In this document: in pieces, positions 17,417 to 56,566 of the stretch | How positions within the stretch are numbered: position 1 is the first letter of the stretch | Layout of the letters: every line of letters begins with the position of its first letter | Assembly: GCA_903898675.1 (NCBI GenBank) | Contig: CAIUGM010000005.1 | Coordinates: 62,001 to 126,000, forward strand | Direction: 5' to 3' | Origin: an uncultured Verrucomicrobiota bacterium | GTDB lineage: Bacteria; Verrucomicrobiota; Verrucomicrobiia; Opitutales; Opitutaceae | Length of the DNA: 64,000 nt | Position numbers and translations under genes: made by a program | Notes under the pieces: generated by a model | Told to the model about the DNA's origin: nothing | What the model saw: only the letters and a program-made list of their open reading frames with translations | Databases searched by the model: none

Positions 17417-17500
17417 GAAGTTTTAAGGTTTAAGTTGTAAGAAAAGAACCTCGATCCGAATTCTGACTTAAAACTTACCCTGCTTAAACCTTACAACTTA
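17417..17500. repeat. Inward-facing heptamer element D (word TAAGNNN)
   Basis: Plus strand from 17417: GAAGTTT, TAAGGTT, TAAGTTG, TAAGAAA. Minus strand from 17500: TAAGTTG, TAAGGTT, TAAGCAGGG, TAAGTTT, TAAGTCA. The words share TAAG, but their order differs between arms, so this is not a simple copied palindrome. The glyA stop codon (17493-17491) is the TAA of the second minus-strand word. Confidence 0.78.
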
Positions 17501-53950: not shown

Positions 53951-53955
53951 AGGTT

Positions 53956-54033
53956 TAAATTTTAAGAGCGTAAGGTTTAAGCAACGGAGATTTTCAGGCT
54001 TACAACTTTAGGCTTTAGCTTGCGTAAAGCTTA
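53956..54033. repeat. Inward-facing heptamer element I1 (word TAAGNNN) before rfbA
   Basis: Plus strand from 53956: TAAATTT, TAAGAGCG, TAAGGTT, TAAGCAA. Minus strand from 54033: TAAGCTT, TACGCAAGC, TAAAGCC, TAAAGTTG, TAAGCC. It is the first of two adjacent elements between rfbA and rfbB. Confidence 0.72.
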
Positions 54034-54106
54034 CCACGGAGCCGCCGGCTAGGATTAGGCCTTTTCTATTGCTCACGGGTGCAGGGTAAACAGACGGGAT
54101 AGCGTT

Positions 54107-54173
54107 TAAGGGCGTAGGTTTTAAGCAGCAGAAGTGTCGGGCTTACAACTTAAACCTTACACCTTAAGCCTTA
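54107..54173. repeat. Inward-facing heptamer element I2 (word TAAGNNN), contains the rfbB stop
   Basis: Plus strand from 54107: TAAGGGCG, TAGGTTT, TAAGCAG. Minus strand from 54173: TAAGGCT, TAAGGTG, TAAGGTT, TAAGTTG, TAAGCCC without interruption. The rfbB stop TAA (54166-54164) is the first three bases of the second minus-strand word. The 73 bases between I1 and I2 hold no gene. Confidence 0.78.
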
Positions 54174-55234
54174 CCGGTTCCGAGTCTCTCCCTGGAGTAT
54201 TTCCTGGCGGTAATATCCGCGGCCCACGGGCGGTTTTGGAGGTACCAGTCGACGGTCTTCTCGATGCCGGTGGCGAACGTCTCGACGGGCTTCCAGCCGA
54301 GCTCGCGGCTGAGCTTGGTGCAATCGATGGCGTACCGCCGGTCGTGGCCGGGCCGGTCGGCGACGTGCTTGATCAGGTTGGCGTAGGTCTGGCCGTCGGC
54401 GCGGGGCGACTTGCGGTCGAGCAGCTCGCAGATTTTTTTGACGATCGCGATGTTGGGCTGCTCGTTGAGGCCGCCGATATTATAGGTCTCACCCGTGCGC
54501 CCCTGCTGCAGCACCAGCCAGATGGCCGCGGCGTGGTCACCCACGTAGAGCCAGTCGCGGATCTGCATGCCGTCGCCATAGACGGGCAGCGGTTTCCCCT
54601 CGAGGGCGTTGAGGATGATGAGCGGGATCAGCTTCTCCGGGAAATGAAACGGCCCGTAGTTGTTCGAGCAGTTGGTCGTGAGCGTCGGCAGGCCATAGGT
54701 GTGCTGGTAGGCGCGGACCAGGTGATCGCTGGAGGCCTTGGAGGCGGCGTAGGGGCTGTTGGGCTCGAAATTATGTTCCTCCGTGAAGGCCGGGGCGCCC
54801 GGGGCGAGCGAGCCGTATACTTCGTCGGTCGAGACGTGGAGGAACCGGAAGGTGTTCTTCTTCATGTCCGGCAGCTGACTCCAGTGCAGCCGGACACCGT
54901 TCAACAGGCGCAGGGTTCCGACGACGTTGGTCTGGATGAAGGGCTCGGGCGAGTCGATGGAGCGGTCGACGTGTGACTCGGCCGCGAAATTCACGACGGC
55001 GTCGATCGCATGTTCCTTCAGCAGGCGGGCGACCAGCGCCGGGTCGCCGATATCGCCGTGCGCGAAAACATAGCGCGGGTCGCCGGCGAGGTCGGCCAGG
55101 TTGGCCGGATTGCCGGCGTAGGTGAGCGCATCGAGGTTGACGAGCTTGCGCAGGCCGGACGGTTTTTCCGTCAGGCGCTGCCGGATGAAGTTGGAGCCGA
55201 TAAAACCGCAGCCGCCGGTTACCAGTAAGTTCAT
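54164..55234 (-). CDS. rfbB: dTDP-glucose 4,6-dehydratase
   Basis: 356 residues. MNLLVTGGCGFIGSNFIRQRL (NAD loop), LHVSTDEVYGSL (Thr, Asp, Glu catalytic), SPYAASKASSDHLVRAY (YxxxK) and NNYGPFHFPEKLIPLIILNAL are RmlB hallmarks. It converts dTDP-glucose to the 4-keto-6-deoxy sugar. The last residues before the stop are encoded in the first TAAG words of element I2. Element I3 begins on its start codon: the T of the reverse-complemented ATG is the first base of TAAGTTT. Confidence 0.95.
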   Translation of the reverse strand: MNLLVTGGCGFIGSNFIRQRLTEKPSGLRKLVNLDALTYAGNPANLADLAGDPRYVFAHGDIGDPALVARLLKEHAIDAVVNFAAESHVDRSIDSPEPFIQTNVVGTLRLLNGVRLHWSQLPDMKKNTFRFLHVSTDEVYGSLAPGAPAFTEEHNFEPNSPYAASKASSDHLVRAYQHTYGLPTLTTNCSNNYGPFHFPEKLIPLIILNALEGKPLPVYGDGMQIRDWLYVGDHAAAIWLVLQQGRTGETYNIGGLNEQPNIAIVKKICELLDRKSPRADGQTYANLIKHVADRPGHDRRYAIDCTKLSRELGWKPVETFATGIEKTVDWYLQNRPWAADITARKYSRERLGTGKA

Positions 55235-55692
55235 AAGTTTTAAGAGCGTAAGGTGTAAGCCCGGAAGGGGGTGGGGCTAGGCTCGGATTTAAGTTTCAAG
55301 GTTTAAGCGACCGGAGCAAGGCATTGGTCATTTTGGAGACTTCCGTGTATTTCGCCTCCAACGCGGCGTAGGCCTCGGGCGAGAGCATGCCAAGATCGTT
55401 GGCGAGCAGTAACAAATAGCGGGTCTCCTCGGTTGAGCCGCGGGCAATGATCAGAAATTGACGGAACTCCGCCAGTGATCCGCGACCCTTGCCCTCTGCA
55501 ATGTTGGTTGGAATCGAGGCGGCGGCACGGCAGAGTTGGTCAGTAACGCGATAGCGTTCCTCGGCTGGAAACGACTTGGTTATGCGATATACTTCCAGCG
55601 TGGCCGCATGCGCTTTCTGCCAGACGATCAAGTCGCGCCAACTTTCAATTTTATCGGTGCTCACGAGCTTAAAACTTATCCCTTAAACCTGA
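55234..55692. mobile_element. Candidate IVS-like element I3: TAAG heptamer arms enclosing a four-helix-bundle gene
   Basis: Left arm, plus strand from 55234: TAAGTTT, TAAGAGCG, TAAGGTG, TAAGCCC. A second plus-strand set at 55290-55310 (TAAGTTT, CAAGGTT, TAAGCGA) overlaps the end of the gene. Right arm, minus strand from 55685: TAAGGGA, TAAGTTT, TAAGCTC, directly followed by the GTG start of the gene at 55664. Thus the gene at 55296-55664 is enclosed by inward-facing words exactly like the empty elements nearby. The whole unit fills the junction of rfbB and the NRS/ER-like gene. Confidence 0.55.
55296..55664 (-). CDS. Four-helix-bundle protein, 23S rRNA intervening-sequence protein family
   Basis: 122 residues with a GTG start. 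IESWRDLIVWQKAHAATLEVYRIT, RYRVTDQLCRAAASIPTNIAEG, KGRGSLAEFRQFLIIARGSTEE and TRYLLLLANDLG are the conserved stretches of the family first seen inside 23S rRNA intervening sequences (IVP); the fold is also that of Avd, the accessory protein of diversity-generating retroelements. Its biochemical role is unknown. It interrupts the rhamnose genes, and both its ends sit in TAAG heptamers: the stop TGA is adjacent to CTTAAACC-type words. Confidence 0.9.
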   Translation of the reverse strand: MSTDKIESWRDLIVWQKAHAATLEVYRITKSFPAEERYRVTDQLCRAAASIPTNIAEGKGRGSLAEFRQFLIIARGSTEETRYLLLLANDLGMLSPEAYAALEAKYTEVSKMTNALLRSLKP

Positions 55693-55696
55693 CCAC

Positions 55697-56566
55697 TCAG
55701 GCGCTGCGCCAGGAGCGCAACGCCTGCTCCACGGCTTCGTGGACCGGCGTGAGCTTGATGCCGGTGGCCGCGAGCTTGGTGGAGTTCATGACGCAATTGG
55801 AGCGCGGGGTCTTGGCCGCCGTCTGCATGAACTCGGCCTCGTCCTTGAAGAACGTGAACTGCTTGGCGGACACCCCGGTTTTCTTGATGAGCTCAACCAC
55901 CTCGTGGGTGGTGACCTGGCCGGGGTTGGTGACGTTGTAGGTGCCGAACGGCACGCGCTTCTCCCAGCAGGCAAAGGTGGCGGCGACGAATTCCTCCAGC
56001 TGTGAGATCGAGTTGGTGGCCTCCAGCAGCGTGCTGTATCGCATCAGCTTGCTGAGATAGTTGCGCGGGTTGTCGACCTCGTTGAACGGGATGCGCAGGC
56101 GCCAGACATAAACCTGCGGAAAACCGGCCAGGACCTCCTCGCCGAGCGCCTTGGTGCCGGAGTAAAAGCTGCAGTTGTCCGTGCGAAAGGTGAAGTTGGG
56201 CGTGTCGGTCTCGGTAAAGCCGGAGCCGTCGGGCCGGGCGCCCGTGAAGATGCAGCCGGAGGAAACATGGCCCCAGGGAACGCCGGCGGCGGTGCACGCC
56301 TGGGCGATCGTGCCGGGCAGCACGCCGTTGCCCAGCAGGCACTCGGTCTTGTGCAGTTCGCAGGCGTCGACGTTGGGCTTGCCGGTGTAACCGGCGGCGT
56401 TGATCAGAAATTCGGGCTTCTCCCGGCGCAACAGCTCGGTGAGCGCCGGCAGGTTGGTGTAGTCGAAGTCAGCCCGCCGCACGTTGCGGAAGGGCAGGCC
56501 TTTGCGCTGAAGCAGGGCTTGGTAAGCCGTGCCCACATAACCGGAACCGCCGAGCAGGAAAATCAT
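55697..56566 (-). CDS. NRS/ER-like nucleotide-rhamnose synthase (3,5-epimerase/4-reductase)
   Basis: 289 residues. It is an extended-SDR enzyme: IFLLGGSGYVGTAYQALL (NADPH loop), INAAGYTGKPNVDACELHK, VSSGCIFTGA, FTETDTPNFT, CSFYSGTKALGEEVL (YxxxK), LRIPFNEVDNPRNYLSKLMRY and FGTYNVTNPGQVTTHEVVELI. The TGKPNVDACE and NPGQVTTHE stretches are those of the plant/fungal RHM C-terminal domain and its bifunctional relatives, which do both epimerisation and reduction. No rfbC or rfbD is present beside rfbA and rfbB, so this enzyme probably completes rhamnose. RmlD-only activity is the alternative. Confidence 0.82.
   Translation of the reverse strand: MIFLLGGSGYVGTAYQALLQRKGLPFRNVRRADFDYTNLPALTELLRREKPEFLINAAGYTGKPNVDACELHKTECLLGNGVLPGTIAQACTAAGVPWGHVSSGCIFTGARPDGSGFTETDTPNFTFRTDNCSFYSGTKALGEEVLAGFPQVYVWRLRIPFNEVDNPRNYLSKLMRYSTLLEATNSISQLEEFVAATFACWEKRVPFGTYNVTNPGQVTTHEVVELIKKTGVSAKQFTFFKDEAEFMQTAAKTPRSNCVMNSTKLAATGIKLTPVHEAVEQALRSWRSA

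Follow-up and report, generated by a model that had tools for sequence, protein, structure and literature searches.

An IVP gene between inverted arms of 7-bp phase: a probable intervening-sequence-type cassette at the NRS/ER-rfbB junction of an uncultured Opitutaceae bacterium

Short inverted elements that occur in gene-bearing and gene-less copies are known from the repetitive extragenic palindrome (REP) systems with their REP-associated tyrosine transposases (RAYTs) and from miniature inverted-repeat transposable elements (MITEs). Another described system is the intervening sequence (IVS) of 23S rRNA, for which the available part of PMC4990558 describes, in Coxiella, a 28-bp stem with GACAGAT heptamers before the S23p start and an RNase III site where the first repeat begins. 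Heptameric arrays have furthermore been described as unexplained, with GGGAATC in Xanthomonas and GGGGA(C/T)T in Nostoc (PMC4692102, whose accessible text also gives 70 inverted heptamer pairs in Xanthomonas campestris pv. campestris, Xcc) and TAACTGA in Beggiatoaceae (PMC4679880, likewise in its accessible text). Here, we analyzed a 64-kb stretch of DNA, hereafter the window, from an uncultured Verrucomicrobiota bacterium of the Opitutaceae (contig CAIUGM010000005.1, positions 62,001 to 126,000). At positions 55235-55690 of the window, a gene of the IVP, or four-helix-bundle (S23p), family is located between inverted arms with a 7-bp phase. We assign a probability of about 0.78 to the reading that this unit is an IVS-type cassette, namely, a minimal mobile or once-mobile element composed of one IVP gene and its two arms. 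This reading stands on observations of its anatomy, of the generality of the arms, of the co-inheritance of arms and protein, of purifying selection, and of filled and empty sites.

The IVP unit fills the whole NRS/ER-rfbB junction, and the IVP gene is on the same strand as both neighbours. The components are as follows.

55296-55664, minus strand: IVP gene, 122 aa, GTG start (PF05635, TIGR02436, PDB 2gsc)
55668-55690, minus strand: 5' arm in gene sense, AGGTTTAAGGGATAAGTTTTAAG, three 7-bp units, from the sequence, with TAAGNNNTAAG at 55668 and 55675
55285-55307, plus strand: inner 3' arm GGATTTAAGTTTCAAGGTTTAAG (read on the plus strand), from the sequence and the predicted duplex and fold
55235-55259, plus strand: outer array AAGTTTTAAGAGCGTAAGGTGTAAG (read on the plus strand), of the same polarity as the inner 3' arm, from the sequence and TAAGNNNTAAG matches
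54164-55234, minus strand: left neighbour, rfbB-like dTDP-glucose 4,6-dehydratase (PF16363; matches in the genus)
55697-56566, minus strand: right neighbour, NRS/ER-type RmlD-like reductase (PF04321)

The pattern TAAGNNNTAAG was observed at 14 sites in the window, where 0.12 are expected, and gave 51+55 matches in the whole genome as compared with 14+12 for the reversed pattern. Around the IVP gene it is located at 55234 and 55249 on the plus strand and at 55668 and 55675 on the minus strand. A preliminary description of this DNA, made from the sequence alone, had placed the gene between inverted TAAG arms at the rfbB-NRS/ER junction, which is borne out by TAAGNNNTAAG on both sides in the 7-bp phase. 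The 5' arm ends 3 nt ahead of the IVP GTG and pairs in the predicted duplex and fold with the inner 3' arm, which overlaps the last IVP codons and the stop (55296-55298). The outer array abuts the rfbB ATG and contains a 12-bp perfect inverted match to the other side, a length that base shuffling of these flanks attained in 2 of 1000 trials. The arms of the window copy are degenerate, with strict 7-bp self-match scores of only 4 and 5. Since this copy is weak evidence alone, it was judged together with its relatives, and the family-wide test carries the case. The encoded protein matched PF05635 with 136.2 bits (cut-off 33.8; E 6e-40) and TIGR02436 with 126.6 bits (cut-off 24; E 4.7e-37), and its best match among solved chains was PDB 2gsc (XCC0516; E 4.9e-16).

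A PF05635 profile search gave matches in 65 of 95 genomes. From the matches listed, 113 IVP loci of the window's order, mostly the best scoring, were taken; 111 of them were used for flank tests with 160-bp flanks, two being dropped for short flanks. The thresholds were a self-match of at least 10 for a period and an inverted match of at least 12. At period 7, 39 upstream and 53 downstream flanks reached the threshold, and at period 14, a multiple of 7, 37/45 (upstream/downstream, as in the following counts). None did so at periods 4, 5, 6, 10, and 11, and few at periods 8 (8/5), 9 (1/1), 12 (0/2), 13 (0/2), and 15 (3/3). An inverted match was detected in 78 of the 111 loci. As a control, ParE-toxin loci were taken from 57 genomes of this set (22 of 30 had full flanks and 8 were dropped); they gave 0/22 inverted matches and 0/0 flanks at period 7. 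One dinucleotide shuffle per flank gave 0 at period 7 and 1/111 inverted. Taken together, an inverted match and/or period 7 or 8 on either side was exhibited by 91 of 111 IVP loci and 0 of 111 base shuffles; the possibility raised in the preliminary description, that most IVP genes of the relatives lack arms, thus does not hold.

The genome of the window contains four IVP genes, whose 7-bp-phase arms differ in sequence between loci: GTTTAAG in the window copy, GTTGAGA in locus L002 (inverted score 22), GATTTTC in L004 (25), and a weak GTGAAAG-like array in L003 (11). Beyond the window's order, 80 named loci were obtained from one scan of GTDB genomes, and 77 were scored after 3 were dropped. 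Inverted arms were found in 59 of the 77, period 7 in 32/36 flanks, and period 8 in 11/8; the match end of these loci was fixed at base 1827 except in 11 truncated and two other cases, and some downstream flanks are off by a few to tens of bases. By their record titles, the loci with inverted arms belong to Bacteroidota, Planctomycetota, Acidobacteria, alpha-, beta-, and gammaproteobacteria, Clostridiales, Chloroflexi, Cloacimonadota, Elusimicrobia, and a Methanophagales archaeon. Inverted arms scoring at least 14 were also found in 7 of 8 plasmid-borne loci, hand-picked from 37 plasmid records with an IVP gene.

The arrangement of the gene within the arms is tight. In the 70 elements with two strict 7-bp arms, the start codon follows its arm at a median of 10 nt, and the stop codon precedes the other arm at a median of 4 nt and is inside it in 20 of 70. 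Read inward, the arms are composed of 40% G, 27% A, 20% T, and 13% C. In 85 of 105 loci, 8 of 113 with unclear neighbours being excluded, the IVP gene has the same direction as the genes on either side. Purifying selection acts on the proteins, with a median dN/dS of 0.075 and a maximum of 0.181 in the 51 pairs usable out of 90. A function of the 7-bp phase as a three-frame stop device was considered and is not general, as only 36 of 140 arms in sense and 33 of 140 in antisense have this property (0.05 in base shuffles, a null that does not preserve the period). Two peculiar arrays were observed, namely, a very long one of about 19 AGACAGA units adjoining the IVP gene of L045, and that of L036, with about eight near-identical AAAGGCAC units, which forms with L035 and L064 an IVP clade of 8-bp phase.

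The arm sequence was found to follow the protein. After exclusion of the 43 of 113 elements lacking two strict 7-bp arms, left-right arm similarity was 0.744 within the same element versus 0.485 between different loci, and the element's own right arm ranked first in 50 of the 70. Between different loci of different genomes, arm similarity correlated with protein identity (r = 0.45; the highest value in 300 permutations, using every third pair, was 0.131), being 0.626 at an IVP identity of at least 55% (n = 119), 0.496 at 45-55% (n = 111), and 0.465 below 45% (n = 2050). The correlation was also observed across clades, between the window's order and the loci that are named or plasmid-borne (r = 0.264, a value that none of 1000 permutations reached). 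Here, arm similarity was 0.530 for pairs with an identity of 50-60% (n = 90) and 0.753 for those with at least 60% (n = 26). In the one clan on which the latter pairs largely rest, the IVP protein of an Aulosira (Cyanobacteria) plasmid is 73% identical to that of L055 of the window's family, and AGGAGTC arms are present in both. Furthermore, the left arm fitted its own right arm better than that of an orthologue in 259 of 360 comparisons (15.7 versus 11.9; random 7.4), which indicates that the two arms evolve together. Genome-wide homogenisation of arms was rejected, as arms of different loci in the same genome are at background similarity (0.482, n = 50). The element-specific heptads, the left-right match, and the tracking of IVP similarity across loci and clades hence indicate that the gene and its arms move as a unit.

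This plan was compared with that of the 23S rRNA IVSs. The IVP gene on Azospirillum lipoferum AZO_p2 (L370) is located inside a 23S rRNA gene (RF02541, 2548.8 bits) and is bounded by inverted GACAGAG/GACGGAT-type heptads with a score of 21; no large-subunit rRNA was detected with Rfam in the 80 named loci. Given the heptad arms of this copy and the heptamers ahead of the Coxiella ORF, one plan occurs both within and outside rRNA. In the available text of PMC4990558, which also names Leptospira and Brucella, the S23p ORF (open reading frame) lies in a loop between complementary ends that form a stem, with heptamers before the ORF; the window element resembles this in its IVP gene, its 12-bp inverted match, and its TAAGNNNTAAG on both sides. 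Like the IVS ORF, which is in the sense of the host transcript, the window gene appears from its strand to be read with its neighbours. In contrast to a 23S IVS, the window element lies between the protein-coding genes rfbB and NRS/ER, and, unlike the Coxiella protein, described in the same partial source as reductively evolving, the IVP proteins here are under purifying selection. Since the window element is not inside a 23S rRNA gene, it would be IVS-like in its working and is not a 23S IVS; the classical 23S IVS, for its part, seems to be an element of this kind that occupies another niche. The proposal of an IVS-like element carrying its own protein is thus supported by the arms of the 91 and 59 loci, by the armed 23S copy, and by the insert-free junctions of congeners.

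Those junctions were examined at 17 rfbB loci (L174-L190), four of which have an rfbB only 58-60% identical to that of the window. No insert was found in 8 of them, where 6-17 nt separate stop and start, so that the gene is not always present at this site, as the preliminary description had allowed it might be. An IVP gene of the window lineage occupies the junction in the window genome and in genome G005, and another IVP-like gene does so in G014. A clearer case was obtained from Nostoc plasmids, of which 8 of 11 similar records were compared. In 5 of 8, the distance between two genes, A and B, is 3 nt, and in 3 of 8 (L376, L377, and L382) a CAGGAGT-armed IVP element is inserted exactly at the stop codon of gene A. 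The identical protein WP_114080759.1 is present in two of the filled plasmids, and a shorter one is annotated in the third. In L368, a different IVP gene with GGGAAAA arms lies between genes B and C; in the other seven plasmids, these two genes have a 1-nt overlap or a gap of 2-3 nt. A related IVP (83%) is located on Aulosira plasmid2 at another locus, which is empty in two relatives. Within the window's order, sixteen locus groups have both flanks in common; livH, gyrA, pheS, and mmsA are names we presume for such loci on reading the sequence. In 180 same-locus pairs, the mean IVP identity was 0.63 versus 0.72 for the flanks, and the IVP was higher in 51. The IVP tree has 113 rows, few columns, and many forks without support.

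Arrays and elements lacking the gene are also present in the window.

54102-54175, arms at about 54102-54125 and 54142-54175: gene-less TAAG element at the rfbB-rfbA junction, from the sequence
53953-54034: second gene-less TAAG element, in tandem to the former and just upstream of the rfbA start, from the sequence and TAAGNNNTAAG matches
17420-17500, arms at 17420-17441 and 17467-17500: gene-less TAAG element elsewhere in the window, from TAAGNNNTAAG matches

The right arm of the 54102-54175 element contains the rfbB stop codon, and the element resembles, loop included, a counterpart at the same junction in genome G019. Between the tandem elements, 54036-54099 appears by eye to be a decayed rfbA 5' end, as if an element and the rfbA start had been duplicated. 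Across 24 stretches from the genome of the window, and the window itself, TAAG elements share an arm consensus, their loops look unrelated by eye, and about 7 of the 24 stretches show a single arm. Genome G006 has 23+29 GTTTAAG-type matches (4+8 for the reversed control) and no IVP match; G024 has 92+87 GTTGAGA-array matches with at most 2 mismatches and no PF05635 match. In G023, 143+143 such matches with at most 1 mismatch were found, often solitary in the 30 loci viewed; the reversed pattern is invalid as a control for GTTGAGA arrays, because it matches the same arrays in another register. Arrays in genomes with no IVP match and solitary arrays suggest that arrays outlive the gene or spread without it. 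The idea that the short neighbouring elements are derivatives of the full element by gene loss was not borne out, given that their loops have no common core by eye and that arrays occur in genomes without an IVP match. Similar to the heptameric simple sequence repeats in the accessible parts of PMC4692102 and PMC4679880, the arrays here are 7-bp, intergenic, and often near start or stop codons. They differ from those repeats as described in that they bound one gene family and their sequence follows its protein, a link to IVP genes being absent from those parts. Among the open-access papers listed, no link of IVP genes outside rRNA to heptad arms was found.

A parallel family with another period was found in PF13366 (PDDEXK_3) genes, which we take to be of the GxxExxY type and which gave matches in 42 of 57 genomes. 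Thirty loci (L204-L233) were taken and 3 dropped; inverted arms of at least 12 were present in 23 of the 27 with full flanks, and the flank periods were 9 in 6/7, 10 in 1/1, 8 in 1/0, and 7 in none. These loci hence serve as a specificity control for the IVP period and suggest that the arm period belongs to the encoded protein family. A GxxExxY-like gene with other arms also occupies the NRS/ER-rfbB junction in six congeners (L177-L179, L184, L187, and L190), five recognized by the PF13366 search and that of G017, perhaps truncated, by reading.

As for the mechanism, the unit is placed between co-directional operon genes and would presumably be co-transcribed with them. The transcript could form a hairpin whose loop holds the gene and whose stem would probably be cut by RNase III, by analogy with the IVSs of 23S rRNA, to free the IVP message and spare the neighbours. 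Since the heptad is lineage-specific and accompanies the protein in both inheritance and movement, the arms are most likely sites recognized by the IVP protein or by a partner acting with it, and insertion of the unit may be carried out by separate machinery. The unit has no transposase. Like transposons and MITEs, it has inverted arms and orthologous sites that are filled or empty (the rfbB junction and Nostoc A-B), and, like REP/RAYT elements and MITEs, it exists as short inverted elements with and without a gene. It differs from the latter two in that the gene-less copies have no common core by eye, the arms are variable in sequence and fixed in period, the unit holds no transposase, and no clear target duplication was seen at the Nostoc A-B junction.

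In its hairpin ends and lack of a clear target duplication, the unit resembles IS200/IS605 and REP elements, and movement by a known enzyme acting in trans may be considered, either a reverse transcriptase as in diversity-generating retroelements (DGRs) with their Avd protein or a Y1/RAYT transposase, with the IVP protein as an accessory. The protein is indeed a four-helix-bundle homologue like DGR Avd and resembles it weakly (24.9 bits for bAvd; 25.7 bits for DGR Avd against a cut-off of 80). In contrast to DGR Avd, it scores below the curated cut-offs, and the window genome (G000) has 0 RVT_1 matches. RVT_1 was found in 16 of 57 genomes and gave no match in the other 41, which include G000 and the one-contig, IVP-bearing G012 and G023. 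A resident reverse transcriptase as the required mover was rejected, as RVT_1-free genomes carry IVP genes, and is largely refuted. A search for Y1, the one transposase family covered, gave no match in G019 with its 8 IVP genes, so that Y1 is not required there; G000 has 2 Y1 matches (best E 3.4e-5). A Y1 enzyme in some genomes, or an enzyme on a transient plasmid or phage, may nevertheless contribute, and we regard movement by a known trans-acting enzyme as improbable. Less credible still is an ordinary operon gene beside fortuitous heptameric microsatellites generated by polymerase slippage, which the available part of PMC4692102 quotes as an explanation of heptamer excess. The variable copy number between relatives and the many solitary arrays in G023 fit slippage, which leaves unexplained the inversion around one family, the left-right matching, and the fact that heptad and protein are inherited together across loci and clades. 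Slippage is hence refuted as a complete explanation and may set the copy number.

A weightier alternative, which we still consider unlikely, is that the IVP protein is a resident regulator and the arrays are RNA or DNA operators, its own arms serving autoregulation and the gene-less arrays constituting a regulon. Arrays are often directly at start or stop codons, which fits the regulatory proposal for TAACTGA repeats in the accessible part of PMC4679880, and the purifying selection and the retention of the gene over genera at several loci agree with it. On the other hand, arrays abound in G006 and G024, where no IVP was found, the gene is present or absent at the same junction in congeners, and one copy lies inside 23S rRNA. 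Rather doubtful at the level of the family, and yet possibly correct for the window copy, is an ancient vertical gene at the window junction that was repeatedly lost and is immobile now. At this junction, L001, L048, and L065 group in a single clade (99% support in the approximate likelihood ratio test SH-aLRT) and track their flanks. For the family, this is opposed by a GAGTAGC-armed clan found at several loci with 74-87% protein identity (its inner forks are weakly supported), by at least three changes on starred tree branches at the rfbB-rfbA locus, and by two Nostoc plasmids that share an identical IVP at a junction where five others have none. The vertical reading may well be true of the window copy.

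Several observations weigh against the cassette reading. At the window junction, IVP and flank identities are 81% versus 84% (L001-L065) and 76% versus 83% (L001-L048); they diverge alike, which suggests co-inheritance, so that the window copy is probably not a fresh insertion, and independent re-insertion there is unsupported. Many locus groups are a single clade over several genera, indicating long vertical persistence, and no clear target-site duplication was seen between filled and empty Nostoc A-B junctions. In the flank tests, 20 of 111 loci were below both thresholds, including L003 of the window's own genome and L048, and two strict 7-bp arms were present in only 70 of 113 elements. 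L048 (G005), of the same IVP lineage and junction as the window copy, has a 9-bp phase, which indicates that the arm period can change, and the arrays of L364 are in direct orientation (inverted score 6). Crude RNA-duplex energies were weak against base shuffles, with 13 of 112 beyond 3 standard deviations. The 26 cross-clade pairs of at least 60% identity rest largely on one clan, the 15 highest listed all involving L367, L376, or L377, and Riemerella L371 has GTTTAAG arms with an IVP only 31% identical to that of the window. The Coxiella IVS protein, moreover, is argued in the available text of PMC4990558 to be probably not expressed.

The IVS-type cassette joins three unexplained things, namely, rRNA IVSs with their orphan S23 protein, the widespread genes annotated as 'four helix bundle protein', and heptameric arrays. 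IVSs would then be no rRNA oddity and would represent one niche of a class with members in many phyla, and the GxxExxY elements, whose phase is 9 bp, suggest that the arm period can be read as a property of the encoded protein. It can be speculated, tentatively and at less than even odds, that there is a large class of minimal elements with a small protein between inverted arms, whose period is set by the family (7 and sometimes 8 for IVP, 9 for GxxExxY/PD-(D/E)XK) and whose sequence drifts per lineage. The protein would read the arms and drive placement without a classical transposase, the heptamer repeats scattered through many bacterial genomes would be its traces, and the 23S IVS would be its best-known address. 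For testing mobility, the Nostoc plasmids supply named filled and empty sites.

Cyanobacterial loci further exhibited IVP genes within CRISPR operons. In the plasmid loci L364 and L366, the IVP gene lies between cas6 and cas4, the operon of L366 being type I-D by its cas1d annotation. The same junction in L372 (Dolichospermum sp. UHCC 0315A), between cas6 ending at 919 and cas4 starting at 1165, holds a different inverted element, GTAGGTTGGGTT...AACCCAACCTAC, and is IVP-filled in Anabaena sp. 90 (98.8% identity over the 72% matched).

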